Below, piece after piece: positions 19,433 through 58,349 of a stretch of 64,000 nucleotides of DNA (positions are counted from its first letter, which is position 1; each line of letters starts with the position of its first letter). The notes beneath the pieces are model-generated. The model was not told the DNA's origin and searched no databases. It was given only the letters and a program-made list of their open reading frames with translations. Origin of the DNA: Rhizopus arrhizus. Taxonomy: Eukaryota > Mucoromycota > Mucoromycetes > Mucorales > Rhizopodaceae. The translations under genes were made by a program, and so were the position numbers. The stretch covers positions 434,001-498,000 of the forward strand of contig JAKZZE010000003.1 of the NCBI GenBank assembly GCA_024220505.1, given 5' to 3'.

Positions 19433-19447
19433 GAGGGATTAGCTCAG
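19433..19447 (+). other. tRNA-Cys 5' fragment at the 3' end of LINE copy I
   Basis: GAGGGATTAGCTCAG, identical to nucleotides 1-15 of the intact tRNA-Cys at 57943, joined directly to the LINE 3' end. Confidence 0.9.
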
Positions 19448-20535
19448 TCGAAAATTTATGTTTTTATTTAAAAGATTAATGCAATCGACCTTTAGGTCAT
19501 TATTTGCTAATCAAAGTACAAAAAGAGAATATACATGATACGAAAAAAAGTCCTAGCGACCATTTGATGGACCAAAAAAGAGGAGAGAGAAGAGAGGCCA
19601 AAAGAGAAATCAAAAGAGCTAGTCTGTAGGATGTCATGTTCATGGTCTCCTCCGCATCGTGCACTAAGTGGTTGTGGCAGTGGGAGGTAGAAGCCAGAGG
19701 AACAATCAAAACACATTTCACCGAGAACGAGAAGTCAACCTTTCATACCAAAGTAATCCAGGTGAAGGATCATTGGTGTAATCACCATCAGGGTTGCAAA
19801 GCTGGTCAAAGTGCCAAAGGATGGTACAAAGACTGACCCAGAACGGAGGACAACGAGCAGAAGGAGAAACAGGCAACAAAGACAAGAGATAGTCAATGTG
19901 CAGCTCGGTAGAACCAGCAGGAGGGAAAGGAAGACAACACCAAAGAGCTGATGGAACCTGAGGACAGACCATGAGATGAGCACGAGTGGTATGACCAAAC
20001 AGACAAGCACAAGGACGAGGATCACCAGGCAGCCAACCCATACGCCAACGTATAAGCCGACTACGATCAGCACGCGAAGCAGGAACATAGAGGATTGGAT
20101 CCACTCGCAGTACAGGACGACATGCCTTGATCAAGACTTGAGAAGTCGAAGCCAGGAACTGATCAAACTCTTGCTGACGATACGCATGTAACCAGGTTTT
20201 AAGCCGAGAAGGAGCCGTAACTTCTGGTGGGTGATCGAGCACAATGCGTCGAGAGCGAAGAGTTGATAGTAGTGACGATGGCAGCGAAGAAGAAAGCAGC
20301 GACAGGAGACAGTCATCAGGTAAAGTCTGGATACGGAGACAAAACTTCAATACCAAGGTATCAGCACGGAAACGCATCGACGGTAGGTTACAGATGTGCC
20401 GAAGCACAACCGTCGACGAGGTCTTGTGGCCACCAACGATCAGACGCAGACACCGACTTTGAGCGCGCTCTAGCTCGTCATAGTCCTTTTTGAGCAGCTT
20501 CGAGATGGCTAGGCCATACTCTAACTTGGGACGTA

Positions 20536-22175
20536 CAGTAGGTCAAAAAATTGCTGCAAGGAATCCATTTTTCTCAGTTTTTGTAGCGTACATCCTGTCA
20601 CAATGGTACAAACTGCTTCTGTTTCTACATAGTAGATTTTCTACATGTCTTGAAAAATCCGAAAGAGTTTAAGCCCAATTGGATAAGTATTGAAGGAAGT
20701 ATGAGGCGCGCAATTTGAAAATTTGAAAAAACGAAAATTTGAACGAAATGGGTTTATTTATTAATATTTAGTTGGTCCTCCTTTTTTATTAATAACCTCT
20801 TCAATTCTTGCCGGCATGCTATCGATATACCTTTGGCAAAGTTCTTTATCAAATTCATTCCATGCTTTTTCTACTCGTTCCCAAAGTTCATCCGTATTCT
20901 TTGCTCTACGTTCGTAACAGCTGAGCTTTAACTTCAGTTGATGCCATACATGTTCTATTGGATTTAAGTCCGGACTCTGAGCTGGCCAATCGCTAATATA
21001 GCGCACTTGATGATTATCTAACCAGGCTATTGTGGATTTTGCCTTGTGCTTTGAATCATTATCATGCTGAAAGTAAATGTTGGACCAGTTGAAATTGTAG
21101 TACTCCATAGTATCACGAAGTGTAGTGTCTAATATATGCTGATAAACATCCGCGTTCATGTTCCCATCGTAAATTTGACAAGCATATCCTGGTCCTTCAG
21201 ATGTTATGCAGCCCCACATCATCAACTTGCCGCCTCCATGCTTGACTGTAAACTCTAGATGATGCGGTTGAAGAGGATCACTTGGTCTTTTCCATTAATA
21301 CTTACAACCATCAGAGCCCCATACGTTGATCTTGGTTTCATCAGAAAAGACGACTTTTCGCCATTCTTCCACTGTCCAATCCTGGTGCTTCTTGGCCCAT
21401 TCGAATCGATGCTGCATATGAGCTTTTGTCAGAAACGGCTTCTTTTTTTTTTATTGAAGAATGGAACTCCATTGATTTCAGGACGTTAATTGCTGACTGG
21501 TATGAGATAGCATAGCCAAGTTGAACCAGCTCCCGGTGTACCTCTTTGGCAGTCTTTAGAACCCCTTCAATGACTTTTCTTTTGATTAGCCGTTTCGTCA
21601 CTTTGGAGACTAATGTAGGTCTACCAGCTGAGCCCATTGTCCTATTTGAAAACAACCGCCTAGAGTATCTACTAACAGTTGATTCATGTACTCCAACCTC
21701 CTTAGCAATATCGTACGTTGATGTGGATCCAGTTAATGCTTGCTTGAGATCGTTTACTTTTTCTTCTGGCAGTCGTTTAGGTATGCGATTGGTAATAAGG
21801 TAAAAAAGAGAAATAATTTAGATAAGAAAATTTAAAATTTAGAATAAAGGAATTGTAAGCGCTTTTATATACTGGCAACATTCTAATCATGTCAAGAATG
21901 TGAAAAATTATGATAGCAACCGGTTGGGTCGTATTAAAATTTGTTATTCCAAACATATGTAAACAAGTAAAAAATGCCGGATGTTTATAAAATTCCCTTT
22001 AACAATATCAAATTCCACCAATAACTATTGCCCATATCAGATAATCGACGAATAAATGCCCCTTCTAGTGAGGTACAAACAATCAATGTTTGAGATAGTT
22101 TCATGCAGTATCCATAGACAACCAGCTGTAAAACCGGTATTTTGCAATTCCTTGCAGCAATTTTTTGACCTACTG
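20536..22175 (-). mobile_element. Tc1-family transposon, inactive copy F, in LINE copy I
   Basis: A 1640-bp inverted sibling of 17047-18687, flanked by TA at 20534-20535 and 22176-22177. The empty site (ACGTACAAACATAG) is intact in the sibling LINE near 33172. Confidence 0.92.
20761..21797 (-). pseudogene. Tc1 transposase, dead copy in F
   Basis: Shares the missing ATG, A-run frameshift and internal TAA of copy E, so both descend from an already dead element that was moved by a transposase supplied elsewhere, or from one duplicated segment. Confidence 0.9.
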
Positions 22176-23288
22176 TACAAACATAGCGTAGAGGCGAGAA
22201 GAGAACAGCAGCGAGAAACCAGACCTATTGGCACCAATAGCAGACAGTTGAGACATCTTGAGTTGTGCACCAGGCTTGCGGTGAGCGACCAGACGAGACG
22301 GAGAGATACCATTACGGGTGAATGGCACGCCAAGATAAACGAACTCATCGACAGACGGTATGTCTTCATCATAGAGAGTGAGTCGGACGTATCTTGACGA
22401 CGTCGGATCTGGTGCATTTAGGATAGCACACTTGGTGGGACTCCATCTGTAGCCGAGCACTTGAGAATGAATTTGAGCCAGGTCAAGCATCTGTTTGACT
22501 TCGCTTGCAGAACCGAGAATAGCCACATCATCAGCATAAAGCAGAGAGTTGATGGCTGTGGGTGACGAAGACAAAGAGGAGACATCCAATGTCGGACCAA
22601 AAGGAAGACCAGGAGAAAGACCAAGACCAGACCCAGGAGGACCAGAAGGAGACAAGGACGAGACCATTGCTGTGGTACGCGTGGCGGCAGAACGAAGAAG
22701 AGCAGGCAGCGTATTGATGTAAATCGAGTACAGATGCGGACTCAAGACAGAGCCTTGAAGTACACCTGTACTCGGAGTGAATGGTGTCGAGACTTGGTTA
22801 GACATCAGGACCGAAATCGAAACATCATCAAACAGATGAGCCAAGACAGAGACCAGAGCAAAAGGAGCAGAGACAGCCAAGAGTGATTGCCATATGACAC
22901 GTCTGTCGACGGTATCATAGGCAGCCTTGATATCAAGAAAAGCCACGACAGGAAAATGACGCTTTCGGCGATAGTACTCCTGTATCAAGTCATGCAAGCA
23001 GAGGGCTTGGTCAAGAGCACTTCGCTGTGGACGGAAACCCCCTTGAGCAATGTCCAGTGGAGGCGAGACATCTTCTAAGAATGGGAAGAGACACATTTCA
23101 AACAGCTTTCGAATGATGGACGTCAAGGAGATCGGCCTGAAGTTTGACGGTTGATGAGGATCGCCCTTCTTGTAGATAGGCACGACCTGCGCATGACGCC
23201 AAAGAGAAGGAGTGTAAGACCATTGGCAGCAGATATCAAAGAGACGAGCCAAGATAGCAGCTAGTTGCTTGCGAATGGGTATAAGCAT

Positions 23289-23693
23289 TGATTTATCCAA
23301 GAATAGAAAGGAACAAGAGAGGACGAGACTCGATAAAGAGATTGCTTTATTTAATAAGAAAATGATACTCTATTTATACTTTTCATACACGGATAATATT
23401 TCATGTTATGGATTAATAATTAATGAGTATGATATAACTGATGACAAATAGATAATGGTTACGTGTTCTTCCATTGTTATCTTTGTCATCATAAGCATTT
23501 ATCCATAGAATACTCGTATATGATTGACTGTGATTTAGTTCCTGGATTTAATATAATTTAACCGTGCAATTACGCAGCATCTTATCCTTAATGAAGATTA
23601 TCCGAATTAACCTGTAGCCTATCTATTGGATATATTTTACATGTAGCTTATTAATACTGTTTTCATATCGAGTTATGAATGATGGATACATCA
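23289..23693 (-). repeat. 3' LTR of the Ty3 element
   Basis: 405 bp. On the element's strand it starts TGATGTATCC and ends GGATAAATCA, with a GTATAAATAGAG promoter-like box and AATAAA. Confidence 0.92.
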
Positions 23694-23899
23694 TTGCCCC
23701 CTTCCAGGTTGGAACAACCGATGAGCATCATGAATAACGAAGAGTACAGGGATCATATCCAATATGATTGCGTAGGCTGTTTATATTAAAGACGTAAGTG
23801 TAGAGGAAAGAGAGAGTATGCTCTTCTGGTATATAATCGATAAAAACCCAAAAAACCTCTTGAGGAAAAAAGTAATGGGAAAAGATCATATTCAGCTCG

Positions 23900-26800
23900 T
23901 TACTTTGTCTTGTTTCGTTTGTTAAAATTATTAGTCTTTGTTGGAACATTCGTATGAGATGAGCGTTTACGTTTGCCAATGTTATTATTGACGTTACGTC
24001 TTGCCCAGTACTGTTCTATCATACTCATGTCATCAAAACTTGAGGCAGGTTCCCAGGTATCATATTCTGGAGGATAACCTTTCCATCTTACTAGGTATTT
24101 ATAATTACTAGTGTTATTTCCTTTATGTTGGATAATTGCCTGCACATCGTACTGTTGTTGGTCAGCGCGATTATTAACAACGTTGTCTGTAGAGATGAGT
24201 TTGATGTGCGAGGTAGGTACGTCGCGCGATAATAGTGTACCTGTTTTATCCGTCAAAATGTAGCTACCATTTTTTGTGACTCCATGTACGACAAAGGGGC
24301 CCTCGTACCTTGGGTCAGTTTTACTATTTCTATTCACATTTTTTATCATAACTTCGCTATTATTAGGAAATTGTTGATGTACAATGCGGTGTTTCTTTGT
24401 AAAATACTCGTTGTCAGTTCTTTGAGTAGTCATAATACGGTTACGTATAGCAGGGATTACTATGTTGTTCATATTGTCTAATTTATTTTCTAGTGCTTTA
24501 GCATACTGCTGACTAGAGTTAGGTATTGAGGATTGTGTATTGGAATAATCCTGGAATTCATTTGGTTGTCTATTATACAGAAGCACAAATGGTCTGGAAT
24601 GGTGTAATCTAGAATATTTGCAATTCATAGCATATTGAATACTAGGAAGGAAAAGATTCCACTCGTCTTTCTTGCCTTGTAATCTTTTAACAAGAGCTCG
24701 TTTGGCTATTCCGACAAACGATTCGTTAGTCGAATTTCCCAATGGGTTATAAGGCAGTGAAAGTCTATGGTCAATACCACAGGTTTCCATTAATGAATTA
24801 AATATTTCATTAGTGAATTCTGTACCGTTATCTGAACTAAGCTTTTTGGGCCAACCAAAAGTGCAAAAGATATCTCTAAGTTCATTAGCTATGGATACTG
24901 CAGTTTTATCCATTAATGGTCTTAGAATTGTAAATCTTGTGAAGAGATCAACTAGGACTAAAATGAAATTATGTCCTTCTGTTGATGTAATGTTCAGGGT
25001 ACCGAGGTCAATACAGACGTGATCAAAAGGACCATCTGGTAGAATACTACGGGGAGGGTGATACCCGTGTTTGCCAATATTAAATTGTTGACATTCAGGA
25101 CAATTGGATACTAGCTGCAATGCATCTTTTTTAATATTAATCCAGTGCAAATTATCATTGTGGATTGTCTTTACAATAGCATCAGCCCCAAAGTGTCCAA
25201 GTAGATGTGCCTTTAATAATAGGTTATGACGTTCCTCTTCTGGTGGTGTCATGTAGTCTACTAGTTGTACAGCTCTTTGTTTTATGTTTGTACTGTTGTC
25301 TGTAGTACGTTTACTCTGTGACTTTGTATTTTTATTTTTTATGGAAAGTTGCTGAGGATTATTATCTCCCCCCAGTCTTTTTTCCGTATCGTCTGAAAAA
25401 AGACGAGAAAGTGAATCCGGCAACACATTTTCAATTCCTGGACGATGGATTACTTTGAATGTATAGTTGAAAATAGTTTCGAACCAATTCAGCATCATGG
25501 GATTAGGAATGTTTTGTGTGCCAAGATAGACCAAACTTTTATGATCAGTATACAGCGTGAATTGAGATCCATACAACCACTTGTGAAATCTTTCAAAAAG
25601 ATAACAGATGGCTAACAGCTCTCGTTTAGTTGTCGAGTAGTTCATTTCTGACTTCGACAGTGCTCTTGCTGCGAATCCAATATAGCGAGTTTTATCGTCA
25701 ATAATTTGATAAAGTACACCGCCAATTCCTGTGTTGCTAGCATCTGTAGCTAGCTGTAATTCATGACGCATGTCAGGTATAGACAGAACAGGAGCATTAG
25801 ATAAGGCTGTTTGTATATTTCGAAAAGCCTGTAGGTATTTGTCAGTCCAAATGTGTTCCAATGAACCTTCGTTACGTAGTTTATCTAACGGTGCGGTCAT
25901 GGTAGAGAAATTTGGGAGATGACTTCGAAAATAATTAGCGAGGCCTAGAAAGCGTTGTATATCTTTTCCAGTCTTTGGTATTGGCCATGCTAAAGCATTT
26001 GCAACCTTTCTGCTATCCAATGAGAGACTATTGTGACTAATAGTGAACCCTAGGATGTTTACCGAAGTTTGCATAAAGTGACATTTATCAATGTTAAGAA
26101 TAAATTTAGCTGATGTAAGTCGTTCGATGACAGTATTTACGCATTTGATATGTTCCTCAATATCGGGTCCAGTACCGATAGTTAAATCATCAATGAAACA
26201 TGTAACGTATGGCAAGTCATGTAAGAGGGTAGTTAGCACACGTTGGAAATGATTTGGTATAGGGGTCAAACCGAATGGTGCTCTACAGAATTGATATTGT
26301 TGACCGTTAAATGTAAAAGCTGTAAGGGCTCTATGCTCATCAGCTAGAGGTAACCGATGAAAAGCTTGTTTGAGGTCAAGTACTGTGAATAGTGTCGCAG
26401 CACTCATTTTTTGATGCAACTCAGCTATCAATGGTAATTGAAAGCGGTCGGTACGATCTTTTATGAGTATTGCATTGATATGTCTGGGGTCTATACACAC
26501 CCGTACATCGTCACTATAATTACCATTAGCATCCTTTTTACGTACAGTCAACAAAGGAGAGTTAAATGCAGTATTAGGAGGAGCTATTTCAATTACACCA
26601 TCTGCTAACCATTTATCAACCTGTTCTTGTACTTTAGGCTGGATTGACAGTGCAATAGGATACTGTCGTCTATAAGTGGTTTTACCTGGTTCAGTTTCCA
26701 AGCGAACTATCGCTTCAGGTAGAGGACATGCAGACGTGCTAGGGATCTTAGCATTGGCGCTCAAATATGGCTGTAATGCGTCCATAAGTTGTTCACGCTG

Positions 26801-28762
26801 TTGGTGAGTACCAGCGGGTGACTTATTAGGTTTGATAGGTGAAGGGTCTATTGGATCAGGTATTGTAGAGATATTAGGACTATCCCACGTAACAGCTAAA
26901 CCTGTCAAGTTAATGTTTAACTTAGGCATAAGATCTGTACCAATACAAATAGGTATATCCTTATCAAACTTAAAAATTTCAAATTCATGTAAGACATTGA
27001 TTCCGTTATAAAATACTTTTATTTGATCTGTAATAGCAGTTCTAGATACCAAGGTATCCAAACTAGCTAATTGTAATTTTCCTGAAACAGGAAAAGTTCT
27101 AACGTTTATAATTTTTGCTAGGTCAGGAGAGATCGTAGAAGTATTACACCCAGTATCAACCAAAGCCCAAGTATGGACATTTTCTATAGTGATGGGTACA
27201 AAAAAGGAATCAGTACGTTTGTTATTAAAACTGTGAAGTTTTGTATTAAACGGTTGCAACTTACATAATGATGAGTAGTAGTGGATGTCCTTGACGGCTT
27301 CATCGTCAAGATCCTGTTCTTCATCGTGGCTTTGTTGGTTGGCAGGGTTGTATTTAGAAGCATTTGTACCCATTGCTTTATCTTCACTGCCAGTCAACTG
27401 AAGTGAGCGGAATGCCCTGGTTATGGTAGGTGCAGTAGAGGAGGAGGAGGCAGAACCAGCAGAAAGAGGTTGATTCCTTTTAGGGCAAACATTTAAATGC
27501 TCCCTAGTAAAAGGAGCGTTGCATTTAAAGCAACGCTTACTAGATGTCTCTTTGTTCATACTGTTAGCAATTCCAAGTTCCTGAGCCTTTTTACAACGAT
27601 CTGTTGTGTGGTTGCACTTTCCATGGATGATACAAGTCCTTCCATCCGTACGGTGGTTTCTTTTATGAATACCACTGGGAGGGTTCAACCCGTTGACTTG
27701 AGAGGGTTGGTTATTGAATTTTTTAGTTGACATATGGGGCAAGGTCTGTTGTTTCGTATGAAACTTTCTTGCGATACTAGAAAGGAGGTTTATGTCATTC
27801 TTTGCCTCCTGATCAAGACTGACGATGGCCATGTTGACATGATTTTGGAGGCTACTAGTGAGGGAGTTCACAAACAAAATAGCCAAAAAATCGTCAGCTA
27901 CGGGAGTGGCTTCACGCTTGAGCTTCAAGAAGCGGTCAGTGTATTTTTCCACAGATTCATCAGGTTGCATGCTGATGGTTAACAGCTCTCTTGAGGCGTG
28001 GGCTTGAGCCTCAGTGGATTCGATGCCATATTTCAAGGTTAATTGTTCCTTGAATATGGTCCAAGATAAATTCTTCTTTACCCGTAATTCATCATACCAA
28101 GAACGCTGAGTATGGGTAAGGGAGAAAGGGATGAGGCGCTGCCAATGCACCTGTACATCCAAGCGGTACGCAAAGAGTATATCCTCAAAACGTCGGATAC
28201 AGTCAGCAATGTCTTTAAAGACGGGCAATGCTGAGTTCTCTACATTACCAGTGTACTGAAACAAAGGTAAGTTTTGAGGAACCATCGTAGGTTGACTGTT
28301 AGAACCGTTAATGGCAGAGCCATTGGTCTGTATAGTCAAGTTATTAGCCAATTTTGCTTGCAAGTCCAACAAGGAGGCCAAGATGGTAGACTTGGTCGTG
28401 TATTCACGGGAAAGGTTAGCCAGTTGCTTTCCTGAAAGCTCTTGACCTGTGATAGCCGCAGCAATTTGTTCTACCTGTTTCGTCAAAGTCTGGACGGTAG
28501 CCGTCAAATTACGACTACCCGAGACCTGAGAAGGTGGTGCTGCGCCACTGCCCTTGACACCAGCGAGTGGAGAGGCCATAGCCCTGGGTTCAACTTCTTC
28601 CATCTCTATATCTTCTGTAATAGAGTTTGGAGATCCAGTAAGAGGAAGTTCAATCCCATTAACCATGGAGGGCTTTTCAAGTCTAGGACCAATGAAAGCA
28701 GGGTCACTTTCAGAAAGAAGGGTTTCTTCGTTGTAAGCCAAAAGATTAGAGTTGATAGACAT
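23900..28762 (-). CDS. Ty3 chromovirus Gag-Pol (1620 aa), intact
   Basis: Single fused polyprotein. Rough positions: Gag capsid region 1-380, zinc knuckle CFKCNAPFTREHLNVC near 410, protease VDTG near 532, RT with FIDD near 856, RNase H TDAS near 1006, integrase HHCC 1182-1224, integrase core from about 1247 (CIDLGTL; SSDNGTEF), and chromodomain (YLVRWKGYPPEYDTWEP) about 1537-1590. The chromodomain is expected to steer integration to modified chromatin. I chose the ATG at 28762 because the longer frame begins with TTG inside the LTR. FIDD replaces the usual YIDD/YVDD. No stop or frameshift was seen, so the element may be active. Confidence 0.92.
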   Translation of the reverse strand: MSINSNLLAYNEETLLSESDPAFIGPRLEKPSMVNGIELPLTGSPNSITEDIEMEEVEPRAMASPLAGVKGSGAAPPSQVSGSRNLTATVQTLTKQVEQIAAAITGQELSGKQLANLSREYTTKSTILASLLDLQAKLANNLTIQTNGSAINGSNSQPTMVPQNLPLFQYTGNVENSALPVFKDIADCIRRFEDILFAYRLDVQVHWQRLIPFSLTHTQRSWYDELRVKKNLSWTIFKEQLTLKYGIESTEAQAHASRELLTISMQPDESVEKYTDRFLKLKREATPVADDFLAILFVNSLTSSLQNHVNMAIVSLDQEAKNDINLLSSIARKFHTKQQTLPHMSTKKFNNQPSQVNGLNPPSGIHKRNHRTDGRTCIIHGKCNHTTDRCKKAQELGIANSMNKETSSKRCFKCNAPFTREHLNVCPKRNQPLSAGSASSSSTAPTITRAFRSLQLTGSEDKAMGTNASKYNPANQQSHDEEQDLDDEAVKDIHYYSSLCKLQPFNTKLHSFNNKRTDSFFVPITIENVHTWALVDTGCNTSTISPDLAKIINVRTFPVSGKLQLASLDTLVSRTAITDQIKVFYNGINVLHEFEIFKFDKDIPICIGTDLMPKLNINLTGLAVTWDSPNISTIPDPIDPSPIKPNKSPAGTHQQREQLMDALQPYLSANAKIPSTSACPLPEAIVRLETEPGKTTYRRQYPIALSIQPKVQEQVDKWLADGVIEIAPPNTAFNSPLLTVRKKDANGNYSDDVRVCIDPRHINAILIKDRTDRFQLPLIAELHQKMSAATLFTVLDLKQAFHRLPLADEHRALTAFTFNGQQYQFCRAPFGLTPIPNHFQRVLTTLLHDLPYVTCFIDDLTIGTGPDIEEHIKCVNTVIERLTSAKFILNIDKCHFMQTSVNILGFTISHNSLSLDSRKVANALAWPIPKTGKDIQRFLGLANYFRSHLPNFSTMTAPLDKLRNEGSLEHIWTDKYLQAFRNIQTALSNAPVLSIPDMRHELQLATDASNTGIGGVLYQIIDDKTRYIGFAARALSKSEMNYSTTKRELLAICYLFERFHKWLYGSQFTLYTDHKSLVYLGTQNIPNPMMLNWFETIFNYTFKVIHRPGIENVLPDSLSRLFSDDTEKRLGGDNNPQQLSIKNKNTKSQSKRTTDNSTNIKQRAVQLVDYMTPPEEERHNLLLKAHLLGHFGADAIVKTIHNDNLHWINIKKDALQLVSNCPECQQFNIGKHGYHPPRSILPDGPFDHVCIDLGTLNITSTEGHNFILVLVDLFTRFTILRPLMDKTAVSIANELRDIFCTFGWPKKLSSDNGTEFTNEIFNSLMETCGIDHRLSLPYNPLGNSTNESFVGIAKRALVKRLQGKKDEWNLFLPSIQYAMNCKYSRLHHSRPFVLLYNRQPNEFQDYSNTQSSIPNSSQQYAKALENKLDNMNNIVIPAIRNRIMTTQRTDNEYFTKKHRIVHQQFPNNSEVMIKNVNRNSKTDPRYEGPFVVHGVTKNGSYILTDKTGTLLSRDVPTSHIKLISTDNVVNNRADQQQYDVQAIIQHKGNNTSNYKYLVRWKGYPPEYDTWEPASSFDDMSMIEQYWARRNVNNNIGKRKRSSHTNVPTKTNNFNKRNKTK

Positions 28763-28813
28763 GTTTGAGAATAGCGTAGTAATAATAGAGTAAAGAGAAT
28801 TCGTCAAAAAAAA

Positions 28814-29218
28814 TGATTTATCCAAGAATAGAAAGGAACAAGAGAGGACGAGACTCGATAAAGAGATTGCTTTATTTAATAAGAAAATGATACTCTATTT
28901 ATACTTTTCATACACGGATAATATTTCATGTTATGGATTAATAATTAATGAGTATGATATAACTGATGACAAATAGATAATGGTTACGTGTTCTTCCATT
29001 GTTATCTTTGTCATCATAAGCATTTATCCATAGAATACTCGTATATGATTGACTGTGATTTAGTTCCTGGATTTAATATAATTTAACCGTGCAATTACGC
29101 AGCATCTTATCCTTAATGAAGATTATCCGAATTAACCTGTAGCCTATCTATTGGATATATTTTACATGTAGCTTATTAATACTGTTTTCATATCGAGTTA
29201 TGAATGATGGATACATCA
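28814..29218 (-). repeat. 5' LTR of the Ty3 element
   Basis: Appears identical to 23289-23693. The sequence just inside begins TTTTTTTGACGAATTC on the element's strand, which does not look like a tRNA-CCA primer site; another priming route is possible. Confidence 0.92.
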
Positions 29219-31874: not shown

Positions 31875-32073
31875 CTTTTGTGATTAACTTCAAACTGATA
31901 AAAAGCGATGTAAAGTTGACGTATTCGAAAAATTAAAGTAACCAAAAGGTGTGTTTTTGAAAGACGAATCGAATGGTGCAAAAATTGGAGATGGATGGCT
32001 TGATTTGGCGGAGTTATCGGCTTTTTTGAAAAATAAACAAGTTTACCTTTTTAACCAAAAGCGAAAGAAAAGT

Positions 32074-32088
32074 GAGGGATTAGCTCAG
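32074..32088 (+). other. tRNA-Cys 5' fragment between LINE copies I and II
   Basis: GAGGGATTAGCTCAG, preceded by aaccaaaagcgaaagaaaagt and joined to the 3' end of LINE copy II. Confidence 0.9.
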
Positions 32089-46736: not shown

Positions 46737-46900
46737 GCATTCTTCCCCTTTTTTTTTTCTTGGTTTGTTGTTTCTTCACAAATTGAATAAAAATTTTTAA
46801 AAAAAAGTCTATTGAATGATTCTTTAGTAAAATATATAATAAAACAATAATAATAATAATAATAATAATAAATGAATGAATGAACGCTTCGACATAGTTT
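46737..46900. other. Shared 3' region with TAA microsatellite
   Basis: Lies between two convergent genes. AATAAA near 46787 serves the forward gene. A (TAA)n tract at about 46844-46872 runs into (TGAA)n. Confidence 0.5.
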
Positions 46901-49900: not shown

Positions 49901-51248
49901 AGACTAACAGTCTGCTAATACTGTATCTTAAGGTCCTCGAAATGTGCTGAGCATCAGAAACTGTGTGTAACGGACCTTGTCCAAGCTTTAGGTTGGTGAT
50001 TGAGCTAGTAACTTTTCAGACTAAAAGCGGGAGACCTTCATGATCACAAGACATTAAGTTTCTTTCTTCCCTCTTTCTCCTGTTGATTGTCCATTTAGAG
50101 ATCCTTGTTACTCTAGAAATATCTGCTGTCGTACGAACTAGGCGTGTTCGAGATCTCAGAGTTTCGTTTTTACAGTTGCTTATTTTCTTAAACATATAAG
50201 GCTAGTACTTTGTTATAGTGAATAGGGTAAAAACAAAAGGGGGGACTCAATGGGAAATACAAAATAAGTACAGTTTTATATATTTTTTAAGAGCTACTAA
50301 AATTTACTAATATGCTGTGAAATCTGAAAGCAAACGGGAGAGATATGGGGAAAATTGAAAGAAGGCTAGACAAGCACTACATTTTTGGCGAAAATTGAAA
50401 TATGCAAAAAAATCACTAAAAATGACCTTATGCCTGAAGGATGTCCGGCACAGTTCCGGTTTACATAACATAATGTATATTTTGGACTGTCTTTCAGATG
50501 GTATATGCCACAAAAGTCGCAGACATATGGCGGAGATACAATGTTGATTTTAATTTTTGTGCACCAGTTTTGTCCGCTACTGTAACATCTTCATCAACTG
50601 ATCTTCTTCTCCATTGCTCAATTTGTTGTTCAAAACTGGGTCGCATAAAGAACTTTTTTAAAGTCTCAGTAATTGAGTTGTAGGGATACTCAAGCACTGG
50701 CTTTAAACTGCTGCCTGCAAAAAGAGCATTTCCACATGGTTGTGCTTGTCGATAAGGGTTGTGAGGGAAGCGTACATAGCCACAGGAGCGAGAATGCAAG
50801 CTTCCAGAAGTGTAAACGCTTCGACAAGCAGAGCAAACAAGAAAACGGGACAAACCATTGCTGGCAGTGGAATAATTGACCATAGTACGGGCAGTAGAGA
50901 TCTTTGTAGGAATCTCCATACCATGGCCAAGAGAACGGACAAAGAAGGAAAGAAAGGCCAACAAGTCTTCACCGGCTTTCACCGAGAGGTGCTTTGCTTG
51001 AAAAAGCACAATGAACAACAGCAAGAGGTGACGAAGCTGTTCTTCATTACTCATTCCTTCCTCTTCGTCAATATTCATTCCGTCTAACAAGTTGCAAAAT
51101 ACATTTCAATAAATAAAACCTTTCTTATATTAAATACTTTGCTGATTAAAAATATACCTTCAGTTACTGGTTCAGGAATGGCTGATGAGTATTCGACAGT
51201 TTCCTCCCCGTTGTCGTTAGCTTCAGATACTCTTCTCGATTCTATTTT

Positions 51249-51281
<33 letters not shown>

Positions 51282-51457
51282 AAAATTAGCACGTTTGGAT
51301 TTCTATTGAAAAATAAAACAAAAAAACCTCTATTTCTAACTCTGTCGATAAGTTCATGACCTCTTACAGTTCTCTTTGCAAGCATTCTGAATCCATTGGG
51401 ATGGTTGCTGCATTCAGAACAGGTACAAATAATTTTGGTGGTGTTGAAGTTGTTCAT
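46901..51457 (-). pseudogene. TNP2-like CACTA transposase gene (886 aa when whole), split by a Tc1-like insertion
   Basis: Proposed exons: 51457-51328, 51241-51158, 51083-50583 continuing at 48949-48122, and 48018-46901. Removing the Tc1-like element with one TA gives 2661 bp in one frame. The N-terminus has Cys motifs (CTCSECS, then VCSACRSVY...RSCGYVRF). The core has SLNVDWFQP, IYLAINNLPRNTR, NIVLAGVIPGPHEP, VDPMHNLFLGT and, late, FGPSYSFWLYGFERLNGDMKH; these are the blocks typical of TNP2/Plavaka-type transposases. Likely catalytic acids are in NVDWF, VDPMH and FERLNG (inferred). Exon 4 follows a long T-rich tract. The insertion makes the gene non-functional here; otherwise I see no defect. 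Confidence 0.8.
48952..50582 (+). mobile_element. Non-autonomous Tc1-like element (1631 bp) in the TNP2-like gene
   Basis: Same ends and length as 39358-40988, flanked by TA (48950-48951 and 50583-50584). It falls between DEDV and MFDIYDGRVW of the transposase. No working transposase of its own. Confidence 0.92.
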
Positions 51458-52798
51458 GTTTATATTTTTTAAATTTGGAAATAGCAAAGAAAATTGGTAG
51501 AAAGAGAAAATATGCCTGATAAAAAAAAACATGTTAAATTTAAAAAACAAAGTCGGTGCTTAAAGTAACGTTTTTTTTTTCCCTCGTTTTGTTTCATGGA
51601 ATACTCTAGATGCCAAAGGCATAAGAAAAAAGGAAAGCTCAAGCACTGGTCAAATGTAAGTTTATTAAAAAAAATAACAACCAAGTCTAATGTCGATTTC
51701 TTTTTTTTTTTTTTTTTTTTTTTTACAGTAGGAATTCCTAATGGGACACATTCGGATGATGAACATTAACCTCATGAGAGAAGCTGTTCTTTCCAACATG
51801 ACAAAGCTATAAGAATATCAAACTTTTATTACTGCTTGCTGCTGAAAATTCCTCTTTGGTAACGGAAGTTGGCAATGTTAACATCTCTAATGGCTAATGG
51901 CTGATGGCTAATGGCTAATGGCTAATGGCTAATGGCCTAATGGCCTAATGGCAAATTACACCCATGTGTAAACATGAGGTAAGTAATGAACCAGTGTAAG
52001 CTTAAAAACATATATTCTCTTGTATTATTTGTCATAAAAAATAATAAAGCCATCTATTTACTTGAAAAACAAAAACGCTGTACTTGTATGTGTTAATTAT
52101 AACAAAATGTGAGCAAAGCTTCTTTATTTTTTTATTCTTTTTAGAATATACAAGTTTTCTTTTGTTATAACATAAAAGCATTTGCATTTCTATAAAGTAT
52201 ATTTGCTCTAGATTATTGTTTTCATTTGAATAAGGAACCTTTTATTGCTATATTCTTTTTTTTTTTTCGCTGTCTTTTTTTTTTAACTGTGTCTTTTTTT
52301 TAACTTTGTCTTTTTTTTTTACTTTTAATCTTTCAGCTTCTTTTTTTTTTTTACTAAACGCAACTATTTTGTTACGTTCTGTTACACATTTCCAATGAGC
52401 TTAGCTAAAGATCACAGATTGCCTTCCTAATATGTATTCTTCTGTACAAAATAATCGCACGGTGCTTTTGATTTCCGCATTTTGCCCTCAAAAATAAAAA
52501 AAATAAAATATCGGTCTTTAAACAATGGAGAGAAATACGCTTTCCAAAAAAAGATCGTTTGTAAAAAAAGACATTTCTTTAAAAACATGAATAACTCCAT
52601 GAATATTTACCCTACAAATAAAATAATAACATCGTTAAATTTCTTTATTTTTTTCGCATCTAAATCTTTTTTCAAAATTCGAAAATGATCAATACAGCAA
52701 GATTTAATTTTTTTCACGAAAAAAAGTAACAATTTGTTACCCAAACGAAGAGCAATCTTGCGCAATCCGGTACCTAATTGGAACGATTATTTGCAGTG
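51458..52798. repeat. Right non-coding part of the CACTA-like element
   Basis: No gene. Long T-runs at 51700-51724 and 52257-52350, a minisatellite of CTAATGG units at about 51890-51955, and subterminal motifs near the end (GTTACCCAA at 52735-52743, TTATTTGCAGTG at the terminus). Confidence 0.6.
51890..51955 (+). repeat. CTAATGG minisatellite
   Basis: About eight to nine head-to-tail 7-bp units, with one CTGATGG variant and two 8-bp CCTAATGG-spaced units at the right end. Confidence 0.85.
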
Positions 52799-52854
52799 CG
52801 GCTTTTTTAAAAAATAAACAAGTTTACCTTTTTAACCAAAAGCGAAAGAAAAGT

Positions 52855-52869
52855 GAGGGATTAGCTCAG
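52855..52869 (+). other. tRNA-Cys 5' fragment between LINE copies III and IV
   Basis: GAGGGATTAGCTCAG, preceded by accaaaagcgaaagaaaagt and joined to the 3' end of LINE copy IV. Confidence 0.9.
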
Positions 52870-53139
52870 TCGAAAATTTATGTTTTTATTTAAAAGATTA
52901 ATGCAATCGACCTTTAGGCCATTATTTGCTAATCAAAGTACAAAAAGAGGGTATACATGATGCGAAAAAAAGTCCTAGCGACCATTTGATGGACCAAAAA
53001 AGAGGAGAGAGAAGAGAAGCAAAAAGAGAAATCAAAAGAGCTAGTTTGTAGGATATCATGTTCATGGTCTCCTCCGCATCGTGCACTAAGTGGTTGTGGC
53101 AGTGGGAGGTAGAAGCCAGAGGAACAATCAAAACACATT

Positions 53140-56100
53140 TCACCGAGAACGAGAAGTCGACCTTTCATACCAGAGTAATCCAGGTGAAGGATCATTGGTG
53201 TAATCACCATCAGGGTTGCAAAGACGATCAAAGTGCCAAAGGATAGTACAAAGACTGACCCAGAATGGAGGACAACGAGCAGAAGGAGAAACAGGCAACA
53301 AGGACAAGAGATAGTCAATGTGCAGCTCGGTAGAACCAGCAGGAGGAAAAGGAAGACAACACCAAAGAGCCGATGGGACCTGAGGACAGACCATGAGATG
53401 GGCACGAGTGGTATGACCAAACAGACAAGCACAAGGACGAGGATCACCAGGCAGCCAACCCATACGCCAACGTATCAGACGACTACGATCAGCACGCGAA
53501 GCAGGAACATAGAGGATTGGATCCACACGCAGTACAGGACGACAGGCTCGAATCAAGACTTGAGAAGTCGAAGCCAGGAACTGATCAAACTCTTGCTGAC
53601 GATACGCATGTAACCAGGTTTTAAGCCGAGAAGGAGCCGTAACTTCTGGTGGGTGATCGAGCACAATGCGTCGAGAGCGAAGAGTTGATAGTAGTGACGA
53701 TGGCAGCGAAGAAGAAAGCAGCGACAGGAGACAGTCATCAGGTAAAGTCTGGACACGGAGACAAAACTTCAATACCAAGGTATCAGCACGGAAACGCATC
53801 GACGGTAGGTTACAGATGTGCCGAAGCACAACCGTCGACGAGGTCTTGTGGCCACCAACGATCAGACGCAGACACCGACTTTGAGCGCGCTCTAGCTCGT
53901 CATAGTCCTTTTTGAGCAGCTTGGAGATGGCTAGGCCATACTCTAACTTGGGACGTACAAACATAGCATAGAGGCGAGAAGAGAACAGCAGCGAGAAACC
54001 AGATCGATTGGCACCAATAGCAGACAGTTGAGCCATCTTGAGCTGAGCACCAGGCTTGCGATGAGCGACCAGACGAGACGGAGAGGTACCATTGCGAACG
54101 AATGGCACACCAAGATAGACAAACTCATCGACAGACGGTATGTCTTCATCATAGAGAGTGAGTCGGACGTATCTTGACGACGTCGGATCTGGTGCATTGA
54201 GGACAGCACACTTGGTGGGACTCCATCTGTAGCCAAGTACCTGTGAATGAATTTGGGCCAGGTCAAGCATCTGTTTGACTTCGCTTGCAGAACCGAGAAT
54301 AGCCACATCATCAGCATAAAGCAGAGAGTTGATGGCTGTGGGTGACAAAGACAGAGAGGAGACATCCAATGTCGGACCAAAAGGAAGACCAGGAGAAAGA
54401 CCAAGATCAGAACCAGGAGGACCAGAAGGAGACAAGGATGAGACCATTGTTGTAGTACGCGTGGCAGCAGAACGAAGAAGAGCAGGCAGCGTGTTGATGT
54501 AGATCGAGTACAGATGCGGACTCAAGACAGAGCCTTGAAGCACACCTGTACTCGGTGTGAATGGCGTCGAGACTTGATTAGACATCAGAACCGAGATTGA
54601 AACATCATCAAAGAGATGAGCCAAGACAGAGACCAGAGCAAAAGGAGCAGAGACAGCCAAGAGTGATTGCCATATGACACGTCTGTCGACGGTATCATAG
54701 GCAGCCTTGATATCAAGAAAAGCCACGACAGGAAAATGACGCTTTCGGCGATAGTACTCCTGTATCAAGTCATGCAAGCAGAGGGCTTGGTCAAGAGCAC
54801 TTCGCTGTGGACGGAAACCACCTTGAGCAATGTCCAATGGAGGCGAGACATCTTGTAAGAGTGGAAAGAGACACATTTCAAACAGCTTTCGGATGATGGA
54901 CGTCAAGGAGATCGGCCTGAAGTTTGACGGTTGATGAGGGTCGCCCTTCTTATAGATAGGCACGACCTGCGCATGACGCCAAAGAGAAGGAGTGTAAGAC
55001 CATTGGCAGCAGATATCAAAGAGACGAGCCAGGATAGCAGCTACTTGTTTACGAATGGGAATAAGCATCTCTGTACGCAGATGATCAGAGCCAGGAGCTT
55101 TGCGTAAAGGAAGACGTCGCATTGTGTCAGCAACAGAGTCAGCCGAAAAAGAAGAAAGACCAGCACCAGAACCAGAACCAGGACCAAGACCAGAACCAAG
55201 GCTAGAACCAAGACTAGAACCAAGACCAGAGCCAGATGGGTCATCCTCAGAAGCTGACGCAAGATCAAAAGGGACATGATCATCAGACGATGGAAGAGGA
55301 GGAGGACGAGTGGATGGTAGACCAGAGCCAGAGTAGACGGATGCAAGATGATCTCGCATAGCATTGGCACCAGCGACAGGACCATCAGGATGAGCATATG
55401 AGACTTGAGGACGACGACGGTTATGGACTTGCTTGACCCTACGCACCGCAGAAGAAAAGTCGCCACGAGCGAGGGAGTCACAAAAGGCACGCCAAGATTC
55501 TCGTTTAGCTCGCTTGACAGCCGTGCGGAAACGGACATGAGCTTCTTGATGAAGACCCCACCAGTAAGCTTTGTCAATCCCAAGAGACCAACGCCACTTA
55601 CGGTAGAGCCAGTCTCGACGATCAGCCAGAGCCTGTAGTTGAAAGGTCCAAAACTTCTTCCATTGCTTGGGTCGAGAGACACGAGATCCAACAGACTTGT
55701 CCAGAGCAGAGTAGATGGCCGCATTGAGTTCATCGTTGAGATGGTCAATGGGTGGACGTGTTGACGGTGGACTTGAACACAGCTGTTGAAGCTGGTCAAG
55801 CAAAGCAGCAGACAAGGAACCAAAGGTGGACACATACAGCTTCTGGACTTCTGGTTCTTTCAACCGAGAAAGGTTCCAAAGACGACGGACTTGACCAGAT
55901 GGAGAAGAAGAAGGCTGTGTGGAATGGACCACAGGGACCGAGTACTCAAAAGAGAGTGACATCAGTTTGTGGTCTGACCCCAAAGAAAGATCCAAGGCAA
56001 CCGAGATACTTGCTGAACGAACCAGTGGCATGTTGGTGATGTAGTAGTCTACAATGCTGCTTACCTCAGCATGACCACGGCAAGTCAGGTATGTTGGAAT

Positions 56101-56772
56101 ACCATAGGCAAGTGTCTTGTTCAGGATGTTAAGACCATGATCATTGCACCAACGACGAAGGACAGAGCTACGCATGTTAGTACGAGAGTCACCGACGAGA
56201 CGACCAAGACGAACATTCAGATCACCACAGATGATCGTATCGTCAGTGAGTGGCAGTGAATCCAGAACAGACTGTACCTCAGCAGTAGACAGAGAAGGAG
56301 GCAGGTAGAGACAGATGAGCCGTAGGGAACGACCCAACTGCAGACCAAGAGCATACTTACAGTTCACAGGGAACTCAACCACAGGAAGTGGACACCGAGG
56401 AGAGACCAAGGCAGAGACACCCATAGAACCACGATACTGACCTGCAACTGGAGAGCCATAGAGATGGAACTGCTGCCATGAGGTCGGAAGGCGAGCAGGA
56501 GGAAGCAACCAGGTTTCGGTAATAAAGACCAACGAGAACGACTGGCAGTGACGGAGGAGGTCATCGACTGTGGAAGCCTGGAGACCGTTGGCATTCCACA
56601 AGCCGATGGTAAGCGGAACAGATGAAGTTGATGAAGGAGAACGAGAGGATGAACCATGGAAGCCATGAGAACCAAGAGAAACCAAAGGAGAGGAAGGGGT
56701 TGACGGATCTGGGACCATACCAGATGGAGAGACCGAGGGTGCATTATAATGACAAGTATTACTACTCATCAT
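53140..56772 (-). CDS. LINE ORF2: APE endonuclease-reverse transcriptase, copy IV (1210 aa)
   Basis: Nicks the target and copies the LINE RNA there. The endonuclease domain covers roughly residues 50-275 (LWNANGL near 58, FITETW, IICGDLNVRLG, SIVDYYITN, SDHKLM near 270). RT runs about 560-900 (FRPISLTSIIRK near 608, FLDIKAAYDTVDR, GVLQGSVLSPH, YADD near 822). The C-terminal Cys/His motif CACLFGHTTRAHLMVC is near 1114-1129. A Gly/Ser repeat linker between endonuclease and RT is longer here than in other copies. The ATG at 56772 overlaps the ORF1 stop (TAATG), pointing to termination-reinitiation. No defect seen, so it is the best candidate for an active copy. Clade not assigned. Confidence 0.93.
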   Translation of the reverse strand: MMSSNTCHYNAPSVSPSGMVPDPSTPSSPLVSLGSHGFHGSSSRSPSSTSSVPLTIGLWNANGLQASTVDDLLRHCQSFSLVFITETWLLPPARLPTSWQQFHLYGSPVAGQYRGSMGVSALVSPRCPLPVVEFPVNCKYALGLQLGRSLRLICLYLPPSLSTAEVQSVLDSLPLTDDTIICGDLNVRLGRLVGDSRTNMRSSVLRRWCNDHGLNILNKTLAYGIPTYLTCRGHAEVSSIVDYYITNMPLVRSASISVALDLSLGSDHKLMSLSFEYSVPVVHSTQPSSSPSGQVRRLWNLSRLKEPEVQKLYVSTFGSLSAALLDQLQQLCSSPPSTRPPIDHLNDELNAAIYSALDKSVGSRVSRPKQWKKFWTFQLQALADRRDWLYRKWRWSLGIDKAYWWGLHQEAHVRFRTAVKRAKRESWRAFCDSLARGDFSSAVRRVKQVHNRRRPQVSYAHPDGPVAGANAMRDHLASVYSGSGLPSTRPPPLPSSDDHVPFDLASASEDDPSGSGLGSSLGSSLGSGLGPGSGSGAGLSSFSADSVADTMRRLPLRKAPGSDHLRTEMLIPIRKQVAAILARLFDICCQWSYTPSLWRHAQVVPIYKKGDPHQPSNFRPISLTSIIRKLFEMCLFPLLQDVSPPLDIAQGGFRPQRSALDQALCLHDLIQEYYRRKRHFPVVAFLDIKAAYDTVDRRVIWQSLLAVSAPFALVSVLAHLFDDVSISVLMSNQVSTPFTPSTGVLQGSVLSPHLYSIYINTLPALLRSAATRTTTMVSSLSPSGPPGSDLGLSPGLPFGPTLDVSSLSLSPTAINSLLYADDVAILGSASEVKQMLDLAQIHSQVLGYRWSPTKCAVLNAPDPTSSRYVRLTLYDEDIPSVDEFVYLGVPFVRNGTSPSRLVAHRKPGAQLKMAQLSAIGANRSGFSLLFSSRLYAMFVRPKLEYGLAISKLLKKDYDELERAQSRCLRLIVGGHKTSSTVVLRHICNLPSMRFRADTLVLKFCLRVQTLPDDCLLSLLSSSLPSSLLSTLRSRRIVLDHPPEVTAPSRLKTWLHAYRQQEFDQFLASTSQVLIRACRPVLRVDPILYVPASRADRSRLIRWRMGWLPGDPRPCACLFGHTTRAHLMVCPQVPSALWCCLPFPPAGSTELHIDYLLSLLPVSPSARCPPFWVSLCTILWHFDRLCNPDGDYTNDPSPGLLWYERSTSRSR

Positions 56773-56774
56773 TA
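56770..56774 (-). promoter_or_regulatory. TAATG stop-start overlap linking ORF1 and ORF2
   Basis: The last A of the ORF1 stop TAA is the first base of the ORF2 ATG. The same arrangement is present in copies I (30903), II (35949) and III (42695). It implies that ORF2 is translated by reinitiation after ORF1. Confidence 0.75.
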
Positions 56775-57743
56775 TAATGATCCAAAGCTGGAGCGAGAGG
56801 CAGGACGGTCTTGATCATACTGATCCAGAAGCATTTCATCGTCAGGTTGGTCACGATGGCGTGGGAAGGCAGGACGATCTTGCTTGGCAGCCAAGACTTC
56901 AGAGACAGCCTCATCAGACACCATGGCATTGGCCAAAAAGAAACGAGAGACAGCAACAGCAACAGGATAGCGCAAGCGCTCAAGGGTACGAAGGCAACGC
57001 TCATTAGAAATGTGCGCCATCTTTTCTTGACGCACCTCAAGAGACGCAGAAGAGAAAGTAGGGTCAGCAACGTTGTCCGGATCTAAGGGATCGAATTGAT
57101 CAAGGACCTTGATCTTTGCTTTCTCCAGCAAAGAGACGAGAGCAGGCTTGTACTGAAGATGGACAAGCAGACCAACAACGGAGTGGGCGGGAAACGAAAC
57201 ATCTAGCACCCGCCAGGTGTCAACACCCAAGCGACCAAGACGACGACGAGCTTCGGTGTACGACATTTTGCGAGATCTAGGAATGTATACGTACTCAAAT
57301 CCTTGTTCACCTGTAACAGGCTGGAAGCCTCTTGCAGCAGCGGCACGACGACGGAGTTTGTTCTTGGAACCACGTGAAGCCACAGTAGCCCAAGATGAAG
57401 CAGCAGTACCCAAAGAGGGCGAAGAAACGGTCTCTTTAGCACCATTTTGAGGAGCAGGAGAAGAAGCAGCGGCATTTGAACTTGGGGTGTCCCTAGGAGA
57501 CCCGGCAGATTGTGCGGCCAGTTGGGCACGCAAGGAAGCAATCTCATTGGCTTGACTGTTGGTCAGTTCCAAAAGGCGAGCGTTTTCGAGCTGGAGCTGC
57601 TCTAAGGCACTCAAGCGGGCAGTGAGGTCTTCGTAGGCTGCAGCCAAAGACTGAAGAGTGACGTCAGCATTGGAATTTGCTGAGTTTGTTGAGGCGGCGG
57701 CGTTGGGGATCCTTGAACCCAAGGTTTTTCTTAAGGGTCCCAT
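56772..57743 (-). CDS. LINE ORF1 protein, copy IV (323 aa)
   Basis: Coiled-coil-like heptads near 40-80 (LSALEQLQLENARLLELTNS), a Ser/Ala-rich linker, a basic stretch (SKNKLRRRAAAARG), then the conserved block with YVYIPRSRKMSYTEARRRLGR. Likely binds the LINE RNA and ORF2. No zinc knuckle. Almost identical to ORF1 of copies I and III. Confidence 0.82.
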   Translation of the reverse strand: MGPLRKTLGSRIPNAAASTNSANSNADVTLQSLAAAYEDLTARLSALEQLQLENARLLELTNSQANEIASLRAQLAAQSAGSPRDTPSSNAAASSPAPQNGAKETVSSPSLGTAASSWATVASRGSKNKLRRRAAAARGFQPVTGEQGFEYVYIPRSRKMSYTEARRRLGRLGVDTWRVLDVSFPAHSVVGLLVHLQYKPALVSLLEKAKIKVLDQFDPLDPDNVADPTFSSASLEVRQEKMAHISNERCLRTLERLRYPVAVAVSRFFLANAMVSDEAVSEVLAAKQDRPAFPRHRDQPDDEMLLDQYDQDRPASRSSFGSL

Positions 57744-57942
57744 CTTTTGTGATTAACTTCAAACGGTAAAAAAGCGATGTAAAGTTGATGTATTCGAAAA
57801 ATTAAAGATACCAAAAGGTGTGTTTTTGAAAGATGAATCGAATGGTGTAAAAATTGGAGATGGATGGCTTGATTTGGAGGAGTTATCGGCTTTTTTGAAA
57901 AATAAACAAGTTTACCTTTTGAACCAAAAGCGAAAGAAAAGT
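57744..57942 (-). promoter_or_regulatory. LINE copy IV 5' UTR and tRNA-Cys upstream flank
   Basis: Non-coding. Matches the 5' UTRs of copies I and III. The final gcgaaagaaaagt before the tRNA is the flank found before the fragments at 32074 and 52855, so where the LINE ends and duplicated tRNA flank begins cannot be fixed from this window alone. Confidence 0.6.
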
Positions 57943-58014
57943 GAGGGATTAGCTCAGCGGTAGAGCGGAAGATTGCAAATCTTTAGGTCCCGTGTTCAAT
58001 CCACGGATTCCTCT
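57943..58014 (+). tRNA. tRNA-Cys: tRNA-Cys (GCA), intact
   Basis: Cloverleaf pairs fully: acceptor GAGGGAT/ATTCCTC (one G-U), D stem GCTC/GAGC, anticodon stem GAAGA/TCTTT around loop TTGCAAA with anticodon GCA at 57975-57977, T stem CCGTG/CACGG around TTCAATC, and T at the discriminator position as expected for tRNA-Cys. No intron. The internal A box covers the D arm, exactly where the LINE copies join their 15-nt fragments. The 5' flank is LINE or duplicated flank sequence, and a Ty3 element begins 15 bp downstream. Confidence 0.97.
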
Positions 58015-58302: not shown

Positions 58303-58349
58303 ATTGGTAGCATCTGTTGTAAACATTCCAATTGCAACAGAATTTATTT

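Follow-up and report, generated by a model that had tools for sequence, protein, structure and literature searches.

A retrotransposon whose only targets are a handful of essential genes of low copy number would be expected either to exhaust its sites or to harm its host, and the locus described here raises the question of how copies of a LINE could accumulate inside a tRNA gene that is nonetheless present in complete form. Within the window (the whole stretch of Rhizopus arrhizus DNA that was analysed, 64,000 nt), the first 15 nucleotides of tRNA-Cys occur as exact matches at 19433, 32074, 37169, 52855 and 57943, all on the plus strand. Allowing up to two mismatches, five matches were found compared to a mean of 0.14 in shuffled sequence, with none of 100 shuffles reaching five. 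The single tRNA identified by ARAGORN in the window, an intact and apparently rebuilt tRNA-Cys(GCA), occupies 57943–58014 (+). The other four 15-mers are stubs (nt 1–15; 19433–19447, 32074–32088, 37169–37183, and 52855–52869, all +), each followed directly by the 3′ end of a minus-strand copy of the same LINE, hereafter LINE-A (~5.06 kb per copy). This agrees with the original prediction of four tandem copies, each with its 3′ end at tRNA-Cys nt 1–15, and a complete tRNA-Cys after the fourth; the predicted lengths of about 5.04, 5.07, 5.04, and 5.06 kb were remeasured, net of inserted elements, as 5060, 5080, 5055, and 5073 bp (copies 1–4).

The copies were delimited by alignment to copy 4 (52870–57942, −), the reference copy, which adjoins the intact gene and is 99.94% identical over 5073 bp to a copy in the C22 array. 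Copy 1 (19448–32073, −) has two interruptions, the first (~20538–22174) a near-identical inverted copy of 17045–18692, the frame of which has DDE_3, and the second (~23289–29218) containing a gypsy pol frame (23900–28894) flanked by 405-bp repeats. Copy 2 (32089–37168, −) is uninterrupted, retains a frame with reverse transcriptase and endonuclease (32359–36015), and is 92% identical to copy 4 over LINE positions 590–5073, with a different 5′ part. Copy 3 (37184–52854, −) is interrupted at ~39358–40989 and at ~43812–52798, the latter insert having the ends CACTG...CAGTG and a Transposase_21 frame. The outer flank of the array (18941–19432, −) probably represents another, older element at its 5′ end; 508 bp, counting the 15-mer, are shared with the C19 array (99.4% identity), and by eye this flank resembles that of a tRNA-Phe site (L074).

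LINE-A is an APE-type non-LTR retrotransposon. ORF2 of copy 4 (53140–56814, −; 1224 codons) matched two Pfam domains and nothing else, an APE-like endonuclease (Exo_endo_phos_2, 5.7e-11) and a reverse transcriptase (RVT_1, 2.9e-23), both in the one reading frame, with YADD at residue 833; its PDB matches, to R2 and L1, cover the reverse transcriptase part only. A protein search gave at least 225 relatives of ORF2. The Pfam scan of LINE-A returned no restriction-like endonuclease, and the coding content is reverse transcriptase and endonuclease rather than the DDE transposase of Dada elements. An open frame for ORF1 (56772–57752, −; 326 codons) had no Pfam match. Both target-site duplication and 5′ truncation occur among LINE-A copies, as for an APE-type LINE, and the 3′ end (...AAATTTTCGA) runs straight into the tRNA, with no poly(A) tail. 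Among the best 38 of 1213 candidates scored across the genome, nine of the 15 ORF2 matches with ≥94% identity were full length and without a stop.

Genome-wide, the tRNA-Cys 15-mer occurs exactly 23 times (0 for the reversed-sequence control), and the five tRNA-Cys genes found, identical to one another over all 72 nt, each terminate a LINE array. A genome search for LINE-A, for which the best 40 of 89 candidates were scored so that copy numbers are lower bounds, gave 43 matches, of which 29 reach the LINE 3′ terminus and 14 are internal or belong to other families. Eighteen of the 29 ends adjoin tRNA-Cys nt 1–15 (counting the copy at the C4 end, a duplicate) and seven adjoin tRNA-Thr(TGT) nt 1–15, each with 15 of 15 bases, so that 25 of 29 do not end at unrelated sequence. 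The remaining four, all short copies, adjoin neither 15-mer, and three of these off-target ends retain CAG, TCAG, or CTCAG. The A boxes of the two LINE-A targets are similar (TTAGCWCAG). The same insertion point is used in other tRNAs by LINE-B, family D, and a SINE (tRNA-Pro, -Ile, and -Phe, and nearly in -Gly), the families having distinct targets: Cys and Thr for A, Pro and Gly for B, and Ile and Phe for D. At tRNA-Ile, a 161-bp truncated copy lies between two 16-bp duplications, the second of which starts the intact tRNA-Ile; at tRNA-Gly the junction is GCGTTCTTAGTTTAG, but the tRNA-Gly gene has A as its 15th base. The behaviour seen in the window, with insertion after nt 15, a duplicate of nt 1–15, a rebuilt gene, and copies stacked one after another, holds across the genome, but it is confined neither to tRNA-Cys nor to a single LINE family: tRNA-Cys is a target, alongside tRNA-Thr, and several families and a SINE take part.

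For tRNA-Cys, -Thr, and -Pro together there were 102 fifteen-mers compared to 16 genes with a full start, ‘intact’ being defined for Thr and Pro by an 18-base pattern (whole tRNA read for one of four Thr and one of seven Pro genes). Arrays were taken as groups by contig and strand, a grouping of our choosing that divides C8 into two; 96 of the 102 fifteen-mers fall into 16 such groups, and six lie outside (for Cys, the one at the C4 end; for Pro, four on C26 and one on C28). In all 16 arrays, the full-start gene occupies the terminal position. A single control tRNA, tRNA-Arg(CCT), had no stubs, its two matches among the best 63 of 2878 candidates both being inside the gene.

The SINE was recognized from a 539-bp insert (L062), the one insert read whole, which by eye and in tRNA orientation has a tRNA-like 5′ part and a 3′ end (ACGAAAGTTTTTATT) comparable to that of LINE-B (ACGAAAATTTTTATT). 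With its tRNA-like head and LINE-like 3′ end, the insert is a tRNA-derived SINE. LINE-A and LINE-B match at 42 of their last 50 bp; special conservation of this terminus was considered and dropped, as 42/50 is unremarkable when, of 1.2 kb compared between the families, the first 813 bp are 87.8% identical.

Taken together, it is very probable that related APE-type LINEs, joined by one or more tRNA-headed SINEs whose 3′ end is similar to theirs, insert after nt 15 of particular tRNA genes, in the D arm and A box, and rebuild those genes. The junctions, the duplication, the antisense orientation, the polarity of the arrays, the absence of clustering by array, and the use of more than one target tRNA can be read from the DNA, and the following sequence of events would generate them. 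The endonuclease would nick the tRNA-sense strand after nt 15, and the 3′ end at the nick would prime reverse transcription of the element RNA, so that the LINE would run antisense to the tRNA and its 3′ end would abut nt 15. A cut in the opposite strand, approximately where the mature tRNA begins, would duplicate nt 1–15 and place a complete gene on the 5′ side of the element. The rebuilt gene, presumably transcribed, would serve as the next target, so that copies pile up and the most recent of them faces the sole intact gene head-to-head.

By exact pattern, 16 of the 16 genes found for Cys, Thr(TGT), and Pro are colonised. This allows the tentative suggestion, held at less than even confidence, that a guild of LINE and SINE families may have taken over all known genes of several tRNA isoacceptors in this genome, each gene being retroelement-rebuilt, with a duplicated nt 1–15 and a leader taken from the element 5′ end. 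The head-to-head tRNA–LINE unit could then act as a self-renewing landing pad, where an open and possibly bidirectional promoter, supplied by the intact Pol III gene, would be available to the youngest copy alone, older copies being left with a non-functional piece of the A box.

A rival with less than even probability is that the same junctions arise by targeting through the Pol III machinery (cf. TRE5-A and Ty3) instead of direct recognition of the A box by the endonuclease. Use of the same structural position in several tRNA species, and the presence in the genome of other elements at fixed distances from tRNA genes, would suit such a route; however, the junctions are exact at nt 15 with no spread, A boxes are alike among the targets seen for a given family (for A, TTAGCWCAG), three of the four off-target ends keep the CAG-type motif, and no stub belongs to tRNA-Arg(CCT), which is also a Pol III gene but differs in its A box. 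The distinction concerns recognition only and can be compatible with the main account of insertion and rebuilding.

A very unlikely origin is one insertion per locus followed by tandem or segmental duplication, or by gene conversion between arrays. Some duplication is evident, as 9.9 kb at the C4 end reproduce part of the C26 array with 98.9% identity and outer flanks are common to C13 and C22 (~2 kb, 99.3%) and to C19 and C23 (508 bp, 99.4%). However, in a tree of the 25 LINE-A copies of ≥230 bp (from the 29 with 3′ ends), array labels required 19 changes compared to a shuffled mean of 19.0, with strong support on only 5 of 22 inner branches, and this lack of clustering by array argues that the arrays grew mainly via repeated insertion. 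Within one array, truncation points and inserted elements vary among copies, and spacings of two kinds alternate in the Thr and Pro arrays; the five tRNA-Cys loci lose identity just past the tRNA, except for repeat pieces farther downstream; and the same junction position recurs in unrelated tRNA species. Tandem duplication was thus rejected as the main cause, based on the tree and the mixed spacings, and the alternative of a single insertion that the original prediction had left open gave way to growth that appears to be mainly by repeated insertion, two segments nonetheless being duplicated, from which it follows that recombination acts too.

In the Cys arrays the 15-mer borders all full-length copies, but that it is part of the element RNA, copied along as a 5′ or 3′ extension with no target duplication, is scarcely credible and was rejected, since the 15-mer varies with the target (Cys or Thr beside one LINE family), is present on both sides of truncated copies, and is missing from off-target copies. 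The duplicated target is tRNA nt 1–15 itself. The original prediction had included a short 5′ flank, ‘gaaagaaag’, in the duplication, and this had to be abandoned because three 5′-truncated copies in tRNA-Cys arrays pass from the LINE body to tRNA nt 1 (within ~1 base) without it; ‘gaaagaaag’ is the 5′ end of the element.

As insertion duplicates precisely the portion that it separates from the rest of the gene, both site exhaustion and harm to the host would be removed, so that a target such as tRNA-Cys, for which only five genes were found, can still carry near-identical and apparently recent elements. Phages and integrative elements at tRNA genes likewise restore the tRNA on insertion, the missing part being supplied by the element through recombination, whereas here host sequence would be duplicated during retrotransposition; in this sense the LINEs are a retrotransposon counterpart of the phage elements. 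The order of copies in an array should record the order of insertion, and APE endonucleases with different A-box targets become comparable (A, Cys/Thr; B, Pro/Gly; D, Ile/Phe).

Several known elements share parts of this behaviour. NeSL-1_TV (tRNA-Pro), LIN15_SM (tRNA-Arg), and LIN25_SM (tRNA-Glu) are likewise tRNA-gene-specific LINEs but belong to a clade with a restriction-like endonuclease, in contrast to the APE-like enzyme here, and the available part of the source mentions neither rebuilt tRNAs nor arrays for them (PMC4640811). Utopia and Keno, described in the same portion, occupy an exact site in a small RNA gene, with several families per array and occasional tandem insertion, and some Utopia produce 20-bp duplications; the gene, however, is that for U2 snRNA, disrupted U2 copies outnumber intact ones, and rebuilding is not described there (PMC4640811). 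The dictyostelid TRE5, TRE3, NLTR-A, and NLTR-B are APE-type LINEs aimed at tRNA genes, with TRE5 oriented opposite to the tRNA, as here, and NLTR-A 2–6 bp from the mature tRNA start; in the excerpts available, TRE and NLTR elements are located beyond the limits of the gene and no duplicate of the tRNA start is described, and TRE elements end in poly(A), whereas the LINE-A 3′ junction is inside, after nt 15, and ...AAATTTTCGA joins the tRNA directly (PMC5911963, PMC5006619). Dada DNA transposons insert within tRNA genes, the P. marinus site TAGCTC being the same A-box motif, but according to the part of the source available they are class II elements that encode a DDE transposase and duplicate 6 bp (PMC3706591). 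No description of intragenic insertion combined with tRNA rebuilding and stacking was found in the open-paper literature.

Among minor observations, pattern sites at C2, C6, C14, and C38:741264 had neither LINE nor tRNA context as seen by the motif script, and an IMG/VR scan gave five pattern matches and no relatives. A candidate site at L080 came to nothing, and L067 was dropped as an empty tRNA-Gly site, a SINE head preceding it. L066 may be an empty tRNA-Gly site, and the tRNA start GGGGAAATGGTGTAG was read at both L091 and L093.

Insertion of LINEs into tRNA genes in this genome (50.26 Mb in 41 contigs, including the window) is real, site-specific, and self-renewing. The 15-mer GAGGGATTAGCTCAG, nucleotides 1–15 of tRNA-Cys, occurs in the window at 19433, 32074, 37169, 52855, and 57943, the fifth beginning an intact tRNA-Cys(GCA) (57943–58014), and the 15-mers separate four minus-strand copies of the APE-type family LINE-A (net 5060, 5080, 5055, and 5073 bp; family letters A to D are our own labels). 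Copies 1 and 3, counted from the left, align with copy 4 at both ends, and copy 2 aligns with it apart from a differing 5′ part. Copy 4 carries an ORF1 frame and an ORF2 encoding an APE-like endonuclease and reverse transcriptase, and the LINE 3′ end (...AAATTTTCGA in LINE sense) abuts the complement of tRNA nucleotide 15, with no poly(A) at this junction. Named ORF2 relatives were mostly from the Mucorales (Rhizopus, Mucor, Phycomyces, and their kin), the listing also including one from Umbelopsis. Within the genome, 9 of the 15 scored ORF2 matches of at least 94% identity were full length and stop-free. The nearly identical youngest copies on contigs C22 and C23 (the window array) differ at 3 of 5073 positions (99.94% identity). 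Two kinds of ORF1/5′ region, the second with ~50–60% ORF1 identity, occur on closely similar LINE-A bodies (C13, C22, C23, C26), and LINE-B is 88% identical in DNA to LINE-A across 813 bp of 5′ sequence, a pattern that would fit swapping of 5′ modules between elements.

When the final 401 bp of LINE-A served as query, with the best 40 of 89 candidates scored, 43 matches were obtained, and flanks were read for the 29 reaching the terminus. As originally predicted, LINE-A 3′ ends mostly lie at tRNA starts rather than unrelated sequence (25 of 29), with 18 after Cys nucleotides 1–15 and seven after those of tRNA-Thr(TGT) (GCCCGTTTAGCACAG), each a 15/15 match. The other four (matches of 320, 154, 140, and 97 bp) follow other sequence, three of them retaining CAG, TCAG, or CTCAG. 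The 5′ end of a C39 copy immediately adjoins an intact tRNA-Thr(TGT).

Genome-wide, the exact Cys 15-mer occurs 23 times (C4, C13, C19, C22, C23, C26) and its reversed control not at all. A 25-base tRNA-Cys anticodon-arm stretch (≤3 mismatches) occurs five times, once in each of five arrays and always at the tRNA-3′ end. The five genes are identical across 72 nt, identity between loci ends just past the tRNA, and a T-run (≥4) begins 1–75 nt downstream of all five; some locus pairs have common repeat pieces farther downstream (e.g. C22/C19, 459 bp, 99.6%). The contig end of C4 holds a sixth Cys site, which reproduces part of the C26 array at 98.9% over 9.9 kb and is either a duplicate or an assembly effect. 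An additional C26 site, GAGGGATTAGTTCAA, resembles a Cys target that has decayed.

By exact patterns, which would miss diverged genes, there are 29 Thr(TGT) 15-mers (four continuing into TGG like the gene) and 50 Pro 15-mers (seven with gene-type continuation); adding Cys brings the totals to 102 fifteen-mers and 16 genes. Those read whole were 5/5 Cys, 1/4 Thr, and 1/7 Pro genes. With 15-mers grouped into arrays by contig and strand, the gene was terminal in the tRNA-3′ direction in all 16 arrays holding one (chance ~10^-11.7 if placement were random). Two spacings co-occur in Thr arrays (~5.4 and ~5.07 kb) and likewise in Pro arrays (~5.02 and ~0.55 kb), which mixed insertions would be expected to produce. 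The control tRNA-Arg(CCT), with a differing A box, had its 15-mer twice, both at Rfam-listed tRNAs.

The original prediction held that the duplicated target comprised the tRNA 5′ end plus a short 5′ flank; the former stands and the latter does not, as truncated copies run from LINE body straight to nucleotide 1. The duplication is nucleotides 1–15, sometimes plus one base, because three 5′-truncated Cys-array copies (C19:777496, C19:779759, C26:545055) join nucleotide 1 within about one base, and a 161-bp truncated copy at a C3 tRNA-Ile has TGGTCGCTTAGCTCAG on either side, the second beginning an intact tRNA-Ile(AAT). Full-length copies are preceded by ...gaaagaaaagt, ...gaaagaaaagtc, or ...gaaagaaagat, and this ‘gaaagaaag’ is the 5′ end of the element itself. 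At its outer edge, the window array is flanked by what is probably another older element, since this stretch is common to C19 (508 bp, 99.4%) and looks like the sequence flanking a tRNA-Phe site.

Duplication rather than serial insertion is improbable as the main source of the array copies. Speaking against serial insertion, C13 and C22 have ~2 kb of outer flank in common (99.3%), so part of the old array ends did get copied, and the tree built from 25 of the 29 LINE-A copies has strong support at only 5 of its 22 inner branches. Despite that copying, array labels fitted this tree no better than shuffled ones (19 changes versus a mean of 19.0, as low in 135/200 shuffles), in keeping with the serial stacking first proposed. 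For serial insertion, the most likely working, following established LINE biology, would be target-primed reverse transcription that starts where the tRNA-sense strand is nicked after nucleotide 15, as suggested by the antisense LINE and the junction at that nucleotide, with a second cut at about the mature tRNA 5′ end. The rebuilt gene retains its internal promoter, each older stub holding the A box only in part; that the neighbouring Pol III gene serves as a LINE promoter is a guess.

Other families also adjoin tRNA starts. LINE-B (~71% ORF2 identity) has 3′ ends after GGCTTCTTGGTTTAG, nucleotides 1–15 of tRNA-Pro(AGG), and after GCGTTCTTAGTTTAG at two tRNA-Gly(TCC)-like starts (the gene itself has A as its 15th base), while on the 5′ junction side it lies immediately before intact tRNA-Asp and tRNA-Val genes. 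Family D has three 3′ ends after nucleotides 1–15 of tRNA-Ile(AAT) and one after those of tRNA-Phe, and additional 3′ ends follow Thr, Pro, and Ile starts and a Phe start one base shorter. Two tRNA-Pro 15-mers, one bearing a single change, bracket a 539-bp insert that has a tRNA-like head. At several tRNA-Ala-like/tRNA-Ile-like starts (C9, C11, C12, C17, C23, C24) among the sites that matched the CACTA-end pattern described below, inverted tRNA-like sequence was seen by eye just upstream, as if SINE heads adjoined nucleotide 1.

In excerpts of PMC5911963 and PMC5006619, dictyostelid LINEs sit outside tRNA genes (NLTR-A 2–6 bp upstream), whereas here the junction is inside, at nucleotide 15. 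Excerpts of PMC4640811 list RLE-type elements with specificity for the genes of tRNA-Pro, -Arg, and -Glu, as well as Utopia, which occupies U2 genes and is at times tandem. Those of PMC3706591 place Dada DNA transposons within tRNA genes and locate Dewa in a tRNA-Leu spacer. For Rhizopus, excerpts of PMC2699053 describe Ty3 elements frequently co-localising with tRNA genes and LINEs at 3.78%, and give no target for the LINEs. No description of the arrangement appeared in the titles and abstract openings of the open papers that searches on Mucorales/Rhizopus, tRNA, and LINEs listed.

Further elements lie around the tRNA genes. A CACTA-type DNA transposon (43812–52798) has ends TTGCAGTG; genome-wide, with 43–73 bp allowed, such ends lie 55–59 bp upstream of tRNA nucleotide 1 in 20 of 21 pattern matches (reversed control, 0), the 21st being a second TTGCAGTG at an already counted site and one pair being the C4/C26 duplicate. 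A DNA transposon that targets Pol III genes at a constant distance would be notable in itself, and a literature search listed no report of one. A Ty3/gypsy element (58030–63387; 277-bp end repeats, 99.6%) begins ~15 bp past the 3′ end of tRNA-Cys, which resembles the placement of Skipper-2 described in an excerpt of PMC5911963. Near-identical inverted pairs (99.9%) of 1.6-kb insertions lie at 17045–18692, 20531–22177, 39356–40990, and 48950–50584, two of them inside LINE copies and the first with a DDE_3 frame.
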